A stretch of 64,000 bases of DNA from assembly GCF_003268615.1 (NCBI RefSeq), contig NZ_CP029844.1, forward strand, positions 124,001 to 188,000, read 5' to 3'. This DNA is from Blattabacterium clevelandi (lineage in GTDB: Bacteria; Bacteroidota; Bacteroidia; Flavobacteriales; Blattabacteriaceae). The translations under genes and the position numbers were made by a program. Shown in pieces: positions 7,336 through 64,000 of this stretch; positions within the stretch are counted from its first letter, which is position 1, and each line of letters opens with the position of its first letter. The notes beneath the pieces were generated by a model, which was given only the letters and a program-made list of their open reading frames with translations, was not told the origin of the DNA and made no database searches.

Positions 7336-8673
7336 ATGACTTCTATTCTCGTTAGATCCATACAGTTATTGTTTAGTGTTTCTATATTGATAGTAATTCA
7401 TGAATTAGGACACTTTTTGTTAGCTAAAGCATTTAAAGTACATGTAGAAAGATTTTTTTTATTTTTTGATCCTTGGTTTTCTATATTCAAAAAAAAAATA
7501 GGAAAGACTATTTATGGAATAGGGTGGATTCCTTTAGGAGGATATGTCAAAATATCTGGAATGATGACAGAAGAAAATAAAAGTTCTTCTACAGAAAAAA
7601 AAAGTATAAAAGAGTGTAAATTTCGTTCAAAATCTTCAGTAAAACAATTATTAATTGTTTTAGGAGGAATTATTTCCAATGTATTGTTATCTATTATTAT
7701 TTTTTCTTTTTTGTTATTTCAATATGGAGATATTTTCCTTCCTACAAAAAATGTAAAATACGGAATTGAAGTAGATTCTTTAGGGGAAAAAATTGGATTA
7801 CAAAACGGAGATAAAATTTTATTTGTAAATGGAAAATTTATACCCTATTTTAATGATATTCCTAAATCTATTATTTTAGGAAATTCCATTACTATAGATC
7901 GTATGGGAAAAATTATTCATTTATCATTAAATGACGATAAAAAAAGATATTTTTTTGATAGAAAAGAATTTAATTTTTTTATTAAACCTCGTATTCCTCC
8001 TATTATAAATTACGTAATGAAAAATTCGGGGGCATATAAATCTGGATTGAAAAATAATGATGAAATTTTAGCAATTAATTCGGAATTTATTTTATTTTCC
8101 GATCAATTAAAAGATATTTTATCTAAATATAAAAACCAAATTATATTAGTTTCTATCAATAGAAATGGAAAACTTTTTCAAAAGGAAATTTTTTTAAATC
8201 AAAAAGGTATATTAGGAATATATTTGAAGAATTTTATAGATATGGATCAAATTTTTTCATTCGAAAAAAAAAATTATTCTATAATTGAAAGTTTACCTTA
8301 TGGTGTAAAAAAATCTTGGGAAGTTTTAAAAAATCAAATATTTTTTTTAAAAAATGTTTTTCATCTAGAGACTAGAGCTTACAAACATATAGGAAGTTTT
8401 TTTTCTATGGCTAAGGAGTTTCCTGATCAATGGAATTGGGAAATATTTTGGACATTAACAGCTACTTTATCTATATGGTTAGCCTTTTTGAATTTATTCC
8501 CTATTCCATCATTAGATGGAGGTTATGTATTATTTATTATCATAGAAATGATAACTAAAAAAAAGATAAACGAGAGAATTTTTGAACGTTTTACGATCAT
8601 TGGATTTCTAACTATTAGTTTAATTATGGTTATGGTCATTATTTGGGATATTTTTAAAGTATTTTTTTCTTGA
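7336..8673 (+). CDS. rseP: RIP metalloprotease, site-2 protease family
   Basis: Intramembrane zinc protease that cleaves membrane-bound anti-sigma factors or leftover signal peptides. The 445-residue protein has the HELGH zinc motif at residues 22-26 in the first membrane helix, two PDZ-like modules in the periplasmic part (about 130-215 and 220-300; GLQNGDKILFVNGK and GLKNNDEILAINSE), and the C-terminal NLFPIPSLDGGYV motif that supplies the third zinc ligand. All catalytic parts are present. It is a single plus-strand gene. Its last 54 nt are also the antisense end of the convergent cyclo-ligase frame. Confidence 0.94.
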   Translation: MTSILVRSIQLLFSVSILIVIHELGHFLLAKAFKVHVERFFLFFDPWFSIFKKKIGKTIYGIGWIPLGGYVKISGMMTEENKSSSTEKKSIKECKFRSKSSVKQLLIVLGGIISNVLLSIIIFSFLLFQYGDIFLPTKNVKYGIEVDSLGEKIGLQNGDKILFVNGKFIPYFNDIPKSIILGNSITIDRMGKIIHLSLNDDKKRYFFDRKEFNFFIKPRIPPIINYVMKNSGAYKSGLKNNDEILAINSEFILFSDQLKDILSKYKNQIILVSINRNGKLFQKEIFLNQKGILGIYLKNFIDMDQIFSFEKKNYSIIESLPYGVKKSWEVLKNQIFFLKNVFHLETRAYKHIGSFFSMAKEFPDQWNWEIFWTLTATLSIWLAFLNLFPIPSLDGGYVLFIIIEMITKKKINERIFERFTIIGFLTISLIMVMVIIWDIFKVFFS

Positions 8674-9239
8674 ATTTTGAAAGAAAAAAGTATGATTCAT
8701 AGTGATTCCTATATCTATTGTAAGATCGTATTTATGTATTGGTTTAATACAATTGATGGGATCAAATAAACTTAATCCTATTTTTAGAATATTTTTTTTA
8801 CATAGTGTAAGAAATCTATCATAAAAACCTTGACCGTAACCAATACGATATCCTTTTAAATCGAAAACTAATAATGGAATAAATATAACTTCAATAAAAT
8901 AAGGTGGAATAATATTTTTATTTATAGGTTCCGGAATTCCATATTTATTTATTTTTATCAATGTTTTTCTATCAAAAAAACAATTATCTATAGATAATTT
9001 ATGAAAATTTGAATAAGGAATTGTTATATATTTTTTTTTTTAAAAAGAAAATTAATAATGAAAAACGTATTTATTTCATTATTTTTCTCTATGGGTAAAA
9101 AAATATGATAATATTTTTTATTCCATATGAATAGTTTTTTGACTTGAAAAAATATTTCATAACTTTTTTTGAGTACTTCATTTTTTGAAAAAGATTTTCT
9201 GTAAAATAGATATTTTTTTCGTAATTTATTTTTATTCAT
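8620..9239 (-). pseudogene. 5-formyltetrahydrofolate cyclo-ligase, split by a 1-nt frameshift in a poly-A run
   Basis: The enzyme converts 5-formyl-THF to 5,10-methenyl-THF with ATP. Two minus-strand frames together give one full protein. The first starts at ATG 9239 (MNKNKLRKKYLFYRKSFS, typical N-terminus) and stops at 9024. The second continues in another frame and carries INKYGIPEP and GYRIGYGQGFYDRFL, the family signature with the nucleotide-binding GxGxGxYDR loop. The break sits at a run of 11 A (T at 9031-9041 on the plus strand). One added A (12 A) joins the frames with residues KKKYITIPYSNFHKLSIDN, which fits the family. Either the gene is dead, or transcription slippage restores some product, or the run was miscounted. 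The C-terminal tail overlaps rseP by 54 nt. Confidence 0.85.
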
Positions 9240-9262
9240 TTTATATAAATAGTAATTATTTA

Positions 9263-10057
9263 TTATTTTATGATATTCATAAATTTTTCTAATATTTTAC
9301 TTATTTCTTTAGGTTTTTCTATAGGGCCCATATGACCTGTATGTATCTCCATGAAATGGCAATTATATCCAAATTTTGCTTCTTCACGTATTTTTTTTTC
9401 ATTAATAATTAAATCATGTAACCCAATTATATACAATTTTGGAAATTTGGTTTTTTTTAATAAAAATGTTCTATCTTTTCGAATTAACATCCCTCTTAAA
9501 AAAGAAATTGCACTTTTAACGGAAATCGATAAAGTTATTTTTTTTAAAAAATGAATTTCTTTTTGCAATAGATCTAATTTTTTAGGATTGAACAGTTTCT
9601 GTATACTATGAGAAACAAATAAAGGATAATTATTTATTGCAAATTGGATAGAACGAATTCTATTTTTCTTTCTTTCTTTTGTATCTGATTCTGCGGTAGA
9701 ATTAAGTAAACACAAACCTAAAAATATTTCTGGATATTTTTCTGCAAGTGCAAGAGCAATATATCCCCCCATAGAATGACCAACAAAAATAGATTTTTCT
9801 ATATTTTCTTTTTCTAAAATAATTTTTACTATATCAGCTCCCTCTTCCATAGTAAAAATAGTTTTTTCTTCATAGGAAGAACTTTTTCCATGACCAGGAA
9901 AGTCAATTAAAATAATTTTATATTTTTCATAAAATATATCATAAAAAAAATTCCAAATTTCTGAACTTTCCATAAATCCATGCAAAAAAACAATAGATTT
10001 ACCACTTCCTTTTATTTTGTAATAAATTTTTTTTTGATTATGAAAATATATAAACAT
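9263..10057 (-). CDS. Alpha/beta-fold hydrolase
   Basis: 264-residue alpha/beta hydrolase. It shows the oxyanion HGFMESSEIW loop (residues 26-35), DFPGHGKS (about 52-59), the nucleophile elbow GHSMGG with Ser95, a late Asp in GLHDLI and the catalytic His in TGHMGPIEKP near 245. The triad is therefore complete. Similar proteins include MenH-like, BioH-like and esterase members; nothing here decides the substrate, so I leave the role open. It lies just upstream of the frameshifted cyclo-ligase on the same strand (24 nt between stop and next start), so the two may share a transcript. Confidence 0.88.
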   Translation of the reverse strand: MFIYFHNQKKIYYKIKGSGKSIVFLHGFMESSEIWNFFYDIFYEKYKIILIDFPGHGKSSSYEEKTIFTMEEGADIVKIILEKENIEKSIFVGHSMGGYIALALAEKYPEIFLGLCLLNSTAESDTKERKKNRIRSIQFAINNYPLFVSHSIQKLFNPKKLDLLQKEIHFLKKITLSISVKSAISFLRGMLIRKDRTFLLKKTKFPKLYIIGLHDLIINEKKIREEAKFGYNCHFMEIHTGHMGPIEKPKEISKILEKFMNIIK

Positions 10058-51901: not shown

Positions 51902-54900
51902 TTGTTTTTAGAAAAGTTTAAATTACTTGAAAATTTGGTGAATACAGAAAAAATTTCAGAAAAATCAGCAGAAAGAATTACTTTTGCATCGGTAAAAAAA
52001 CAAGTAGAATATCCTGATTTATTGGATATTCAAATAAAATCATTTAAAGATTTTTTTCAACTTGATACAAAACCAGAAAATAGAAAAAACGAAGGTTTAT
52101 TTAAAGCTTTTACCGAAAATTTTCCAATTTCAGATGCAAGAAATTCCTTTGTTTTAGAATTTAAAGGATATTCTATAGATTCTCCTAGATATTCTATAGA
52201 AGAGTGTATAGAAAGAGGATTGACTTATAGTGTTCCTTTAAAAGCTAAATTAAAATTATATTGTACAGATCCTGAACATGAGGATTTTGAAACAGTATAT
52301 CAAGATGTGTATTTAGGAACTTATCCATATATGACTCCTTCTGGGTCTTTTATTTTCAATGGATCAGAACGGGTAATTGTATCTCAATTACATCGTTCTC
52401 CTGGAGTTTTTTTTGGTCAGTCTCATCATGCAAATGGGACGAAATTATATTCTGCAAGAATTATTCCTTTTAAAGGATCTTGGATTGAATTTGCTACAGA
52501 TATCAATAATATTATGTATGCGTATATTGATAGAAAAAAAAAATTACCAATGACGACTTTACTTCGTGCTATTGGATATGAAAGAGATAAAGATATATTA
52601 GAAATATTTAATCTAGCGGAAGAAGTTAAAATAATAGAAAATAATAAGAATATTTTAGATAGAACTATTGCTGCTAGAATATTGAAAATATGGCATGAAG
52701 ATTTTGTAGATGAAGATACAGGGGAAGTAGTATCTATAGAAAAAAATGAAATTTTAATAGATAGAGATATTGTTATAAAACAAGAGCATATAGATCTCAT
52801 TATTCAACACGAAATAAAAACAATTCTTTTGCATAAAGAAGGAGGAAAAAAGAAAGATTATTCTATAATTTACAATACTTTGCAAAAAGATCCTACTAAT
52901 TCTGAAAAAGAAGCTGTAGAATATATATATAGACAACTTAGAAATACAGAACCTCCGGATGAAGAAACTGCTAGAGGAGTTATAGATAAACTTTTTTTTT
53001 CAGATTCTAGATATAGCTTAGGACCTGTAGGTAGATATCGTTTAAATAAACGTCTTGGTTTGGATATAGATCCCAATTATTTAGTTTTAACTAAGGAAGA
53101 TATTATTGCTATAGTTGAACATTTGAATGCATTGTTCAATTCTAAAAAAGAAGTAGATGATATAGATCATTTATCCAATAGACGTGTAAGAACTGTAGGA
53201 GAACAACTTTATACTCAATTTAGTATTGGATTAGCTAGAATGTCTAGAACTATTAGAGAAAGAATGAATGTACGAGATAATGAAGTTTTCATGCCTATAG
53301 ATTTGATTAATTCTAAAACATTATCTTCCGTTATAAATGTTTTTTTTGGAACTAACCAATTATCCCAATTTATGGATCAAACAAATCCATTATCTGAAAT
53401 CACTCATAAAAGAAGATTATCTGCTTTAGGTCCAGGAGGATTATCTAGAGAAAGAGCAGGATTTGAGGTTAGAGATGTTAATTATTCTCATTATGGAAGA
53501 TTATGTCCTATTGAAACACCAGAAGGTCCTAATATTGGTTTAATTTCTTCTCTTTCTGTTTTTGCAAAAATTAATAATATGGGATTTGTAGAAACTCCTT
53601 ATAGATCTACTAGTAATGGAAAAGTAAATTTAAAATCTAAGATCAAATATTTAAGTGCAGAAGAAGAAGAAGGGAGGATTATTGCACAAGCTAATTCTAT
53701 AGATCAATATGGAAATTTTATATCTGACAGAATTATTGCTCGTGAAGATGGAGATTTTCCAATAGTAAAATCAAAACAAGTAGATTATATAGATGTAGCA
53801 CCTAATCAAATAGCTTCTATTTCAGCTTCTTTAATTCCTTTTTTGGAACATGATGATGCTAATAGAGCTCTTATGGGATCTAATATGATGCGTCAAGCTG
53901 TTCCATTATTAAATCCTGAATCACCTATTGTTGGAACTGGATTGGAAAAACAAGTAGCAAGAGATTCTAGAATTTTGATTAATGCAGAAAAAAATGGAAT
54001 AGTAGAATATATTGATGCAAGAAAAATAATTATTCGTTATGATCAAACGGAGAGAGATAAATTGATAAGCTTTGATTCCGAAATGAAAGTTTATGATTTG
54101 ATAAAATTTAGAAAAACAAATCAAAATACATGTATTACTTTAAAACCTATTGTTAAAAAAGGAATGAGGATAGTAAAAGGTGAAATTTTATGTGAAGGCT
54201 ATGCGACTGAAAATGGAGAATTAGCATTAGGAAGAAATTTGAGAGCTGCTTTTATTCCTTGTAATGGATATAATTTTGAAGATGCTGTTCTAATTTCAGA
54301 AAAAGTAGTCAGCGAAGATTGGTTCACCTCAATACACATAGATGAATATTCTTTAGATGTCCGAGATACAAAATTAGGAATGGAGGAACTCACAAATGAC
54401 ATTCCAAATGTTAGTGAGGAGGCTACTAAAGATTTGGATGAAAATGGGATTATTCGTGTTGGAGCTGAAGTTAAACCTGGTGATATTCTTATTGGAAAAA
54501 TAACTCCAAAAGGAGAATCTGATCCAACTCCAGAGGAAAAATTGTTAAGAGCTATTTTTGGCGATAAAGCTGGAAATGTAAAAGATGCTTCTTTAAGAGC
54601 AGAACCTTCTTTATTTGGTATTGTCATTGATACCAAATTATTTACTAGAAGTATAAAAGATAAAAAATCTAGAGCTCAAGATAAAATAAAAATAGATCAT
54701 ATAGAAAAAGAATACGATAAAAAATTTTTAGATTTAAAAAATAATTTTTTAAAAAAATTATATACTGTTTTACATGGAAAAGTTTCTAAAAAAATTTTTT
54801 TCGATGAAAAAGAACAGGGATTTATAGAAAAAGGAACAAAATTCAGCCTCAAATTATTAAATAGTATATCTGATTATATAAATATATCTCCATATAATTG

Positions 54901-55762
54901 GACTTCTGATGTAGAAATTAATAATATTGTATCAGAAATATTGCATAATTATAAAATATCATTTAACGATTTAAATAATATTATGAAACATAAAAAATTT
55001 TCTATTACTATTGGAGATGAATTACCTTCTGGAATTATTAAAATGGCTAAAGTTTATATTGCAAAAAAAAGAAAATTAAAAGTAGGAGATAAAATGGCTG
55101 GAAGACATGGTAATAAAGGAGTTGTAGCACGTATTCTTCGTGAAGAAGATATGCCATTTTTAGAAGATGGAAGTCCTGTAGATATTGTTCTAAATCCATT
55201 AGGAGTTCCTTCTAGAATGAATATTGGACAAATATATGAAACAGTATTAGGTTGGGCAGGATATAAATTAGGTATTAAATTTTCTACCCCTATATTTGAT
55301 GGAGCTAGTATAGAAAAAATAACAAAATATACAAAAAAAGCGGGTATTCCAAATTTTGGAACTACTTATTTATTTGATGGAGGAACAGGGGAAAGATTTG
55401 ATCAACCTGCAACAGTTGGTATTATATATATGTTAAAATTAGGTCATATGGTAGATGATAAAATGCATGCTCGTTCTATAGGCCCTTATTCACTTATTAC
55501 TCAACAACCTTTAGGAGGAAAAGCTCAATTTGGAGGTCAACGTTTTGGAGAAATGGAAGTTTGGGCTTTAGAGGCATTTGGAGCATCTAATATTTTACGT
55601 GAAATATTAACTGTTAAATCAGATGATGTAATAGGACGAGCTAAAACTTATGAATCTATAGTGAAAGGAGATTCAATTCCAGAACCAAATAATCCAGAAT
55701 CTTTTAATGTTTTATGTTATGAATTGAAAGGATTAGGTTTGGATATTAATTTAGAAGAATGA
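51902..55762 (+). CDS. rpoB: DNA-directed RNA polymerase subunit beta
   Basis: Core polymerase subunit. 1286 residues from a TTG at 51902; no in-frame ATG occurs in the first part, and the region [20 protein letters not shown] matches the normal RpoB start. Landmarks are the rifampicin region ([33 protein letters not shown] split around 475-510), [33 protein letters not shown] and the C-terminal clamp [12 protein letters not shown]. At the Rif region the usual sensitive-type residues (D and H in [14 protein letters not shown]) are present. Complete. Confidence 0.97.
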
Positions 55763-60070: not shown

Positions 60071-61789
60071 TTAATTTTTTTTATTATTATCATTAATTTT
60101 TTTCCATTGATCTTTAATGGATACTGTTTTATGAAAAATTAATTTTTTATTGTATTTATTCGTTGTAGTTACATAAAAATATCCAATTCTTTGGAATTGA
60201 AAATGATCTCCTTTTTTAGCTTTATGAAGAAATGGTTCTGCATAAGCTATAATTTTATCTATTGATTTTGGATTGATATATTTATTGAAATTTTTATCTG
60301 TTGATTTTAGATTGATATATTTATTGAAATTTTTATCTATTTTTTTTATTAAAAAAAGAGATTTATATATATGTATTTTTATAGGAATAGAATGTTGTAT
60401 AGAAACCCAATGTAAAGTACTTTTTATTTTTCTTTTTGTTTGACTTTTTTTCTCCTTACCAGATTTACTTGTAGGATCGTAAGTACAGTGTACTTCTATT
60501 ATTTCTCCATTAGAATTTTTGATTGTTGAATTTGCTTTAATAATATAAGCATTTTTAAGTCTTACTTCACAACCAATGGAAAGTCTAAAAAATTCTTTTC
60601 TTTTTTTTTCTAAAAAATCATTTTTTTCAATATATAAATATTTAGAAAAAGGAATTTTTCTACTTCCAAATTTTGGATCTTCTGGATTGTTTTTTGCATC
60701 AACCCATTCTATTTTTTTTGAAGAATAATTATCAATAATTAATTTAATTGGATTTAAAACCACCATTACTCTAGTAGAGATTTTATTTAAATGTTCTCTA
60801 ATTTTAAATTTTAAAAGAGATATATCAATAATATTATTTCTTTTGGAAATTCCTATTTTTTGTATAAAATTTTTTATTGCTATAGCTGTATAACCTCTAT
60901 GACGTAATCCAGATATTGTACAAATCCGAGGATCTTTCCAAGATTGTATGATTTTTTTATTTATTAAAAATTGTATTTGTCTTTTACTAGTTATAGAATA
61001 GTTTAAATTTAATCTTGAAAATTCTATTTGTTTAGGTCTTATTTTATTTTTTTCAACGATTTGATCCAAATACCAATTATATAAAGGACGCCTATTTTCA
61101 AATTCTAATGAGCATAAAGAATGTGATATTTGTTCAATATAATCACATAGCCCATGTGTCCAATCATAAGTTGGATAAATACACCATTTATTTTTGGTAC
61201 GATGATGTGTTTTTTTCAAAATTCTATACATAATTGGATCTCGCATATTCATATTTGAGGAACTCATGTCTATTTTTGCTCTTAGTACACATGTTTTTTC
61301 TTCAAAAAATCCTTTTTTCATTTTTTCAAATAAATATAAATTTTCATTTATAGATCTATTTCTATAATTGCTATTTATTCCAGATTCAAAAGGAGTTTTT
61401 CTTTGAATTTGAATAATATTTTTAGGTAGATTATCTACATAAGCTTTATTATTTTTAATAAGTTCTATAGCCCATTCATAAAGTTGTTGAAAATAGTTTG
61501 AAGCATAATATTCCTGATCCCATTTAAACCCTAAAAATTTTATATCTTTTTTGATAGAATCTATAAATTTTATTTTTTCTCCAATAGGATTTGTATCATC
61601 AAATCTCAAATTTACTGGAGCATTATACTTTTTCCCTAATTCAAAATTGAGATAAATAGCTTTAACATGTCCTATATGAAGATATCCATTTGGTTCTGGT
61701 GGGAATCTAAATCTTATTTTTTTAGTAGAAAATCCATTTTTTATATCTTCTTCTATAATTTTTTCAATAAAATGTAATTGTGATTCTAT
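60071..61789 (-). CDS. glnS: Glutaminyl-tRNA synthetase with no canonical start codon
   Basis: Class I synthetase for tRNA-Gln, in the bacterial/eukaryotic GlnRS type. Translated from 61789 it gives IESQLHFIEKIIEEDIKNG, then FPPEPNGYLHIGHVKAI (HIGH) and LRFDDTNP, which is the true GlnRS N-terminus. Between the upstream stop (61802-61804) and the TTG at 61607-61609 there is no ATG, GTG or TTG; ATA at 61787-61789 (where an ATG would fit) or nearby ATA/ATT codons are the only candidates. The TTG itself would remove the HIGH motif. The C-terminal anticodon-binding domain contains a 13-residue tandem duplication. About 573 residues in total. Confidence 0.9.
   Translation of the reverse strand: MESQLHFIEKIIEEDIKNGFSTKKIRFRFPPEPNGYLHIGHVKAIYLNFELGKKYNAPVNLRFDDTNPIGEKIKFIDSIKKDIKFLGFKWDQEYYASNYFQQLYEWAIELIKNNKAYVDNLPKNIIQIQRKTPFESGINSNYRNRSINENLYLFEKMKKGFFEEKTCVLRAKIDMSSSNMNMRDPIMYRILKKTHHRTKNKWCIYPTYDWTHGLCDYIEQISHSLCSLEFENRRPLYNWYLDQIVEKNKIRPKQIEFSRLNLNYSITSKRQIQFLINKKIIQSWKDPRICTISGLRHRGYTAIAIKNFIQKIGISKRNNIIDISLLKFKIREHLNKISTRVMVVLNPIKLIIDNYSSKKIEWVDAKNNPEDPKFGSRKIPFSKYLYIEKNDFLEKKRKEFFRLSIGCEVRLKNAYIIKANSTIKNSNGEIIEVHCTYDPTSKSGKEKKSQTKRKIKSTLHWVSIQHSIPIKIHIYKSLFLIKKIDKNFNKYINLKSTDKNFNKYINPKSIDKIIAYAEPFLHKAKKGDHFQFQRIGYFYVTTTNKYNKKLIFHKTVSIKDQWKKINDNNKKN
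60259..60336 (-). repeat. Two tandem 39-bp units within glnS
   Basis: Units 60259-60297 and 60298-60336 differ at only two or three positions. They encode KNFNKYINPKSID and KNFNKYINLKSTD side by side in the C-terminal beta-barrel part of GlnRS. Frame is kept because 39 is divisible by 3. This looks like a recent slippage duplication. Confidence 0.9.
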
Positions 61790-61873
61790 TATAATAATAA
61801 TTAAATACCCAATAAATTTAATTTTTTTTTTCTAAAAAATCTATTTTTGTTATATAAATAAAATTTTATACTA

Positions 61874-63133
61874 GTGAATTACTCTGAAACTATTAAATGG
61901 ATTTTTAATCGTCTTCCAAGTTATCAAAATATTGGATTAAAATCATATAAACCAGGTTTAAAAAGAATAAAAACTTTTTGTTCTTATTTAGGAAATCCTC
62001 AAAGTTATTTTAAAAGTATTCATGTAGGAGGAACAAATGGAAAAGGATCTACAGTACATATGTTATCTTCGATTTTTCAAGAAGAAAAATATAATATAGG
62101 ATTATTCACTTCACCTCATTTAATAGATTTTAGAGAGAGAATATGCTATAATGGATATTATATAGAAAAAGATTTTATTATAGATTTTATTAAAAAAAAT
62201 AAAAAAATTATTGAAAAAGAAAAAATATCCTTTTTTGAAATGAATACTGCTTTGGCTTTTCAATATTTTAAAGAAAAAAAAGTTTATATAGCTATAATTG
62301 AAGTAGGAATGGGTGGGCGTTTAGATTCTACTAATATAATAGATCCTGAAATATCAGTGATTACTAATATTAGTGAAGATCATACAGAATCTCTTGGAGA
62401 AAATAGATTGAAAATTGCTTTAGAAAAAGCAGGTATTATAAAAAAAAATAAATCAGTTGTAATTGGAAATAAAATATCTAATGATATACGATTTATTTTT
62501 TTAAAAGAATCATTTAAAAAAAATTCTCCTATATATTTTTCAGAAAATATAAAAGACTATCCCAAATATAAAATTCCATTTGAAGCAAAATATCAAAATT
62601 TAAATAAAATTATTGTATTAAAAACTATAGATATTTTAAATAAAAGAAAAAATATCATTATTTCGAATAAATCTATAGAAAATGGATTAAAAAATGTTAT
62701 TAAAAATACTCATTTTAAAGGACGTTGGCAGATATTACAGTATAATCCAAAAATTATTTGTGATATTGCTCATAATGAAGGTGGTTTTATTATGATAAAG
62801 AATCAATTGAAAAAAGAATCATACGAAAATTTACATTTAATATTAGGGTTTGTAAAAGAAAAAAAAGTAGAAAAATTATTAAAATATTTTTCTAATGAAG
62901 ATTTTTATTATTTTTGTCAACCAAATATAGAAAGAAAATTTCCTATTGATAACTTAAAAAAATTGGTAAAAAAAAATTTTAAAAATTATAGAAAAATATA
63001 TTTTTTTTCTTCTGTAAAAAAAGCTTATTCATACGCTAAATTAAAATCAAAAAAAAAAGATTTGATTTTAATAAGTGGAAGTACTTTTATTGTTTCTGAA
63101 GCTCTAATTCTAAATTTTTCCTTAAATTTGTAA
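61874..63133 (+). CDS. folC: Dihydrofolate synthase/folylpolyglutamate synthase
   Basis: Mur-ligase-type enzyme that adds Glu to dihydropteroate or folates. 419 residues from a GTG at 61874 (MNYSETIKWIFNRLPSYQ). The ATP loop is HVGGTNGKGSTVHMLSSI (about 52-69), then FTSPHLIDFRERI, IIEVGMGGRLDSTNII, ITNISEDHTESLG with metal-binding His, and the C-terminal FKGRWQIL and ICDIAHNEGG. The set is complete. It is divergent from glnS and followed after 26 nt by tRNA-Val. Confidence 0.94.
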   Translation: MNYSETIKWIFNRLPSYQNIGLKSYKPGLKRIKTFCSYLGNPQSYFKSIHVGGTNGKGSTVHMLSSIFQEEKYNIGLFTSPHLIDFRERICYNGYYIEKDFIIDFIKKNKKIIEKEKISFFEMNTALAFQYFKEKKVYIAIIEVGMGGRLDSTNIIDPEISVITNISEDHTESLGENRLKIALEKAGIIKKNKSVVIGNKISNDIRFIFLKESFKKNSPIYFSENIKDYPKYKIPFEAKYQNLNKIIVLKTIDILNKRKNIIISNKSIENGLKNVIKNTHFKGRWQILQYNPKIICDIAHNEGGFIMIKNQLKKESYENLHLILGFVKEKKVEKLLKYFSNEDFYYFCQPNIERKFPIDNLKKLVKKNFKNYRKIYFFSSVKKAYSYAKLKSKKKDLILISGSTFIVSEALILNFSLNL

Positions 63134-63159
63134 AAAATAGTATTGTATTATAATATAAA

Positions 63160-63235
63160 GGGCAATTAGCTCAGTTTGGTTTAGAGCATCTGTTTTACAA
63201 GCAGGGGGTCACTGGTTCAAATCCAGTATTGCCCA
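63160..63235 (+). tRNA. tRNA-Val (anticodon TAC)
   Basis: 76 nt. Acceptor GGGCAAT pairs with ATTGCCC; anticodon stem TCTGT/GCAGG (two G-T pairs) encloses TTTACAA with anticodon TAC; the T arm reads ACTGGTTCAAATCCAGT. Discriminator A; no CCA encoded. The antisense strand of its 3' half serves as the end of miaA. Confidence 0.96.
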
Positions 63236-64000
63236 CTTTATTTAAAATAAAAGATAATATTTTATCTTTTTCTTTGGGATTAAACCATGTAATGGAAGTG
63301 TCTTTTCTATACCATGTTAATTGTCTCTTTGCATATTTTCTGGTATTTTTTTTTATTTCTTCTGAAATTTCTGAAATAGAATATTTTTTTTTAGAAAAAA
63401 AACTAAAAATTTCTTTATATCCTATAGTATTTAGACTATTTAGATATCTATAAGGATAATATTTTTTTGCTTCTTCTAATAATCCATTTTGGATCATTTT
63501 TTCTACTCTATTATTTATTCGAAAATAAATTTCATCTCTTGATAAAATTAATCCTATTTTTATAACCGTAAAATTGTTTAAATATTTTTTTTTAAAGAAA
63601 AAAATAGGAGGGTAACCTGTAGATTGAAATATTTCTAAATATCGTATCAAACGTCTTGGATTATTAATATCTAAATAATTAGGTATTTTTCCATATTTTT
63701 GAACTTTTTTTTGTAAAAAAAGGATTCCTTTTTTTTTGAAATTAAAAATTAAATTATTTCTAATATTTAAATCGATATTTGGAATATTAGATAATCCATT
63801 TATTACCGCTTTTTCATATAAACCGGATCCTCCTACCATGATTAAAATAGTATATTTATGAAATAATTTTTTTATTTTTTCACGAGATTCTATCTCAAAA
63901 TATTTTGCATTGTAAATTTGATGAATAGTTAAATGCCCTATAAAATGATGAGGAATTAATTTAAGGTCTTCCATAGTTGGCATAGAAGTACCTATTTTTA
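63195..64000 (-). CDS. miaA: tRNA dimethylallyltransferase, C-terminal part (cut by window end)
   Basis: Adds a dimethylallyl group to A37 of tRNAs reading UNN codons. The start lies beyond the window; the visible 268 codons open with IGTSMPTMEDLKLIPHHFIG, the substrate-binding part after the P-loop and IISADSRQIY region, and include VGGSGLYEKAVINGL, NPRRLIRYLEIFQSTGYPP and TIGYKEIFSF followed by TRKYAKRQLTWYRKD. The end reads ILNKVGNTGFEPVTPCL, which is antisense tRNA-Val sequence: the TAA at 63195-63197 lies in the anticodon loop region, an overlap of 41 nt. Confidence 0.94.
   Translation of the reverse strand, partial: KIGTSMPTMEDLKLIPHHFIGHLTIHQIYNAKYFEIESREKIKKLFHKYTILIMVGGSGLYEKAVINGLSNIPNIDLNIRNNLIFNFKKKGILFLQKKVQKYGKIPNYLDINNPRRLIRYLEIFQSTGYPPIFFFKKKYLNNFTVIKIGLILSRDEIYFRINNRVEKMIQNGLLEEAKKYYPYRYLNSLNTIGYKEIFSFFSKKKYSISEISEEIKKNTRKYAKRQLTWYRKDTSITWFNPKEKDKILSFILNKVGNTGFEPVTPCL

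Follow-up and report, generated by a model that had tools for sequence, protein, structure and literature searches.

A conserved AUA codon as the probable translation start of glutaminyl-tRNA synthetase in Blattabacterium

Introduction

Where does translation of glnS begin when no canonical start codon precedes the HIGH motif of the encoded glutaminyl-tRNA synthetase (GlnRS)? This question is raised by a 64 kb stretch of a 620,771-base Blattabacterium genome (G000:C1:124001-188000), hereafter called the window. Coordinates are window positions unless genome coordinates are indicated.

Results

Reading frame and product of glnS

The stop-to-stop frame of glnS comprises positions 60071-61831 of the minus strand (Table 1). 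Its product contains the Pfam domains tRNA-synt_1c (PF00749), tRNA-synt_1c_C (PF03950) and tRNA-synt_1c_C2 (PF20974) and matches structures of E. coli GlnRS from end to end (E ~1e-165). This match begins at residue 19 of the stop-to-stop frame, which is four codons past the AUA discussed below. As judged from these matches, the glnS product is a complete, full-length GlnRS consisting of a class I catalytic domain with HIGH motif and the anticodon-binding domains. A near-perfect in-frame direct repeat was noticed in the region of the C-terminal part of GlnRS (window ~60265-60335): DKNFNKYINLKST / DKNFNKYINPKSI.

According to the first-pass annotation of this DNA, no ATG, GTG or TTG precedes the HIGH motif and the first canonical codon is a TTG past it. 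Both statements hold for the minus strand. Since this TTG is located downstream of HIGH, a protein begun there would be without the motif. The TAA stop described at 61802-61804 exists on the plus strand only; the coding strand has an in-frame TTA (Leu) at this place, and the frame remains open for ten further codons up to the TAG at 61834-61832. Two ATA codons had been placed correctly at 61792-61790 and 61789-61787, while the ATT codons next to them number three (61801-61793) and not two. The ATA at 61789-61787 is followed by the codons GAA TCA CAA TTA CAT TTT ATT GAA.

Table 1. Features of the glnS locus in window coordinates.
Feature	Position	Strand	Remarks
glnS coding sequence from AUA	60071..61789	-	572 aa + stop; glutaminyl-tRNA synthetase; open frame, Pfam, structure match
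First canonical in-frame start codon of glnS, TTG	61607..61609	-	inside catalytic domain
HIGH motif, class I synthetase	61667..61678	-	sequence and structure match
Proposed AUA start codon of glnS	61787..61789	-	aligned ATA/ATT across genus, ATG in sister genera
Second ATA, directly before the proposed start; not the conserved codon	61790..61792	-	column with ATA in 9/49 species and 17 different codons
TAAATTTA, resembling the Bacteroidota -7 promoter element (TAnnTTTG)	61813..61820	-	23 nt before AUA; putative promoter role
In-frame upstream stop TAG closing the glnS frame	61832..61834	-	read from sequence
folC-like gene, divergent, presumed GTG start	61874..63133	+	open frame; product named from sequence; bounds the glnS upstream region

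Conservation of the start codon

Comparison of this position between genomes had been suggested earlier as a check, and all glnS 5' regions of 49 Blattabacterium species, including the present genome, were read. At the place of 61789-61787, the alignment has ATA in 43 species, ATT in six, and ATG or GTG in none; in 10 species, where the start is displaced from the main register by at least one codon, it was assigned by visual inspection. The presence of ATA or ATT at the aligned start in all 49 species is far beyond chance, with the reservation that the species are related and the counts therefore not independent. In 38 of the 49, ATA is found at an identical distance from the conserved HFIEK; the rest are shifted by one or two codons or have ATT. 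No canonical start precedes HIGH in 33 species. A canonical codon, mostly TTG for leucine, is present somewhere before HIGH in the other 16 and could serve as start there.

The codon just before the start column occurs in 17 different states, and the frames are commonly closed a few codons upstream. G018 reads TAA-ATA-GAA-TCA with an in-frame TAA immediately before the ATA, which makes ATA the first available codon; in G039, G009 and G010 an upstream stop lies no more than three codons from the start. Parsimony on the gene tree gives 12/16/13 changes per base in the preceding codon versus 3/7/5 in the ATA column, where the latter numbers are inflated by the register-shifted species.

Initiation context

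Three signs that are independent of the codon itself show the glnS ATA to lie in a context that is normal for initiation in Bacteroidota; the counts given for them again stem from related species and are not independent of each other. A purine is present at -3 in 41 of the 49 species, and A at -13 in 35 and at -14 in 30 of them. The conserved ATG starts in the present genome have matching peaks at -3 and -13/-14. Initiation in the related Flavobacterium johnsoniae, which has no Shine-Dalgarno sequences, is favoured by adenines at -3, -12 and -13 (PMC6847099). A Shine-Dalgarno-like 4-mer within 20 nt upstream of the glnS start was detected in only one of the 49 species.

Depletion of AUG around true starts is a further signature of Bacteroidota (PMC6847099). 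Between -40 and -1 of glnS, ATG occurs twice in the 49 species, compared with 15-32 occurrences of GTA, TGA, GAT, AGT and TAG, which have the same composition; in 45 species no ATG is found in any frame from -40 to +45. Finally, 42 of the 49 species have an element TAnnTT[TC][GA] before the start, in most cases at a distance of 20-32 nt. A -7-like element at this distance would result in a short leader ending at the AUA.

Origin and age

An ATG occupies the equivalent place in all 17 glnS genes from sister genera (eight other genera of the same family), and the free-living Flavobacteriaceae examined also start glnS with ATG. The simplest history, and our best reading of these sequences, is a single ATG to ATA change on the Blattabacterium stem. 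The earlier proposal of an ATG that mutated to ATA and is still used is thus supported, except that the change is an ancient one that took place on the stem of the genus and not recently in this strain. The symbiosis of Blattabacterium with cockroaches has been dated to 140 to 300 million years (PMC6128925). Apparently, the AUA start of glnS has been kept for more than 100 million years.

Requirement for GlnRS and state of the translation machinery

GatB was not found in this genome by a search that detected it in 12 of 14 control genomes, and a single gene for tRNA-Gln(UUG) is present. Consequently, GlnRS should be essential and glnS needed; the GatCAB pathway that had been considered as an escape route making glnS dispensable is not seen. 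A light check for lost stringency of the initiator tRNA or 16S rRNA as the cause of the unusual start revealed an ordinary initiator tRNA gene, with the 1-72 mismatch and three G-C pairs in the anticodon stem, and an intact 16S GGAATCGCTAGTAATCG stretch.

Other genes of the genome with a putative AUA start

The 563 conserved open frames of this genome were scanned against two other near-complete Blattabacterium genomes. A filter for the absence of a shared canonical start yielded 83 candidates, from which only genes without a canonical start for many codons were kept; most candidates were false, as the conserved onset fell inside the protein. Four genes have no canonical start over a long stretch both in this genome and in G001: glnS, infC, a DUF218/SanA-like gene and an LptC-like gene. 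AUA is thus probably the working start of at least four genes of the genus, a list that is a minimum and rests on three genomes.

The last three genes are located outside the window on the plus strand (genome coordinates, G000:C1). For infC (449040-449627), every intact locus read across the genus has ATA-AAA-AAR-ARR; an apparent frameshift, which may be an assembly indel, interrupts the infC frame of G041. Among 30 species read, many share the sequence TAA-TTA-GAA-ATA-AAA-CGT-ATA at the onset of the DUF218/SanA-like gene (54453-55043), where a stop precedes the ATA by two or three codons; a few species have ATT or ATC instead. The LptC-like lipoprotein gene (86533-87105) directly follows a tRNA-Phe gene and has ATA-ATA or ATA-ATC before AGT, and no canonical start, in most species read; Pfam assigned no family to it and its name is tentative.

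An LptB-like ABC ATPase gene (606472-607170 in genome coordinates, minus strand, outside the window) was rejected as an AUA gene, since its frame is broken upstream relative to G001. The start and the first residues are missing in frame, and the missing part seems to be present in another frame just upstream. In the MatE transporter gene (190980-192395 in genome coordinates) no canonical start precedes codon 47 in the present genome, and the three genomes share no ATA position. Further genes look broken here. A 5-formyl-THF cyclo-ligase-like gene (named from sequence; window 8620-9296) is divided between two frames that overlap (genome coordinates 132620-133039 and 133024-133296), and a ClpB-like gene (~62418-63846 in genome coordinates, outside the window) is broken into several short frames. 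Both are intact in G001 and G022; the former is a frameshift or pseudogene here.

Discussion

Proposed mechanism of initiation

Taken on the sequence evidence, translation of glnS very probably starts at the AUA at 61789-61787. We propose that an ancestral ATG changed to ATA once on the Blattabacterium stem and that ATA, or ATT, has been used since. The initiator tRNA would read AUA with a third-position mismatch, and initiation would occur with fMet. Because these bacteria are without Shine-Dalgarno sequences, the site would be marked by the purine at -3, by adenines near -13/-14 and by a lack of AUGs that could compete with it. By analogy with AUU/AUA starts in S. aureus and with Streptomyces sigR, the glnS start is probably weak and sensitive to IF3, which would discriminate against AUA here as at the infC ATA of the same genomes. 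GlnRS output would then probably be held low and tied to the level of IF3. In E. coli, excess GlnRS mischarges other tRNAs, which is a possible reason to keep GlnRS low.

Is the start kept weak by selection? We consider this possible, on balance with slightly more doubt than confidence. A reading on which we are evenly divided retains the AUA start without any regulation: drift and AT-biased mutation would have fixed a codon that supplies enough GlnRS, and a return to ATG would be rare. Across the whole tree, a column undergoes on average only ~2 A-to-G changes at the third position, and among 64 comparable columns of codons ending in A, 10 (16%) show no such change at all, so that the missing ATG in 49 species is weak evidence of selection (p ~0.15). 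The move of some species to ATT is also what drift among weak starts would give. However, G is present in at least one of the 49 species in 87% of comparable two-fold columns, which indicates that ATG was reachable. Few other conserved genes are without canonical starts, and infC, for which autoregulation is the accepted reason in other bacteria, has the same codon. As an extension of the selective reading, infC, glnS and the DUF218/SanA-like and LptC-like genes might form an IF3-linked translational group with AUA/AUU starts and without Shine-Dalgarno sequences, in which GlnRS is in limited supply, depending on how free IF3 and ribosomes are balanced. We regard such a group as rather unlikely.

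Initiation at another nearby codon, either the ATA at 61792-61790 or an ATT at 61801-61793, is improbable. In favour of such a start, these codons share the frame of glnS, and AUU is known to initiate weakly; however, their columns vary freely, with 17 codons just upstream of the start column and stops in some species, while the adjoining start column is ATA-rich in all clades.

Still less can be said for an upstream canonical start combined with frameshifting or slippage in the A-rich leader, which we judge very improbable. Slippage on A-runs is known in endosymbionts, and a run of ten A is present at 61831-61822. However, in the present genome the stretch from -60 to -1 is free of ATG in all frames, and the frame of the sole TTG (-23) closes after three codons; upstream ATG is nearly absent in all species. 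In addition, the -7-like element would place the start of transcription downstream of the A-run.

A sequencing or assembly error, or a gene that is failing, as had been considered at first, can be dismissed: although some other genes of this genome look broken, the genus-wide comparison refutes both ideas for glnS, with the same codon in 49 separate genomes, an intact full-length frame encoding all GlnRS domains, and no GatB.

Comparison with known non-canonical starts

Very few bacterial genes are known to have a conserved AUA start. In the open-access literature searched, we found no report of a conserved AUA start on an aminoacyl-tRNA synthetase or in Blattabacterium. As far as this search extends, what is new in the present case is the gene and lineage concerned, the absence of a Shine-Dalgarno sequence and the use of AUA in common with infC and two other genes. 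An essential enzyme here apparently depends on AUA in a lineage that has no Shine-Dalgarno sequences and in which much of the recognition is presumably left to the start codon itself. With their 49 natural sequence variants, these species could help to show how ribosomes of this type locate a weak start and whether enzyme levels are governed by IF3. For annotation, this means that throughout the genus glnS, infC and at least two further genes would be shortened or missed by a gene finder that accepts ATG, GTG and TTG only.

The IF3 gene infC starts with AUU in E. coli and with AUC in Streptomyces. Blattabacterium glnS resembles infC in its conserved non-canonical start, with ATA in the same genomes and no Shine-Dalgarno sequence there. 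In contrast to glnS, infC encodes the discriminating factor and autoregulates; glnS, moreover, has ATG in sister genera. In S. aureus, AUA starts are used by infC, ccpN and citZ, and expression from the AUU/AUA starts tested was ~10% of that from AUG, with a maximum of 30% for ccpN in rich medium (PMC13009471). The AUA of ccpN is conserved between species (S. aureus and B. subtilis), as is that of glnS, and its reporter gave ~10-30% of AUG. However, ccpN codes for a repressor and carries an extended Shine-Dalgarno sequence (PMC13009471), whereas glnS encodes an essential enzyme and has none. A third case is Streptomyces sigR, whose GTC start is repressed by IF3 (PMC5472188). Here too the rare start is genus-wide (32 of 34 GTC and two GTT, compared with 43 ATA and six ATT in glnS), but the codon is another one, the ribosome-binding site is strong and the product is a stress sigma factor.

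The extended Shine-Dalgarno sequence that supports the weak codon in S. aureus and in sigR is thus absent from glnS. Since Bacteroidota in general are without Shine-Dalgarno sequences (PMC6847099), this feature cannot define the class of conserved non-canonical starts in that phylum. By its sequence, glnS fits the class of infC, ccpN and sigR: the codon is conserved, and no usable canonical start precedes the conserved N-terminus in this genome and, overall, in 33 of the 49 species.
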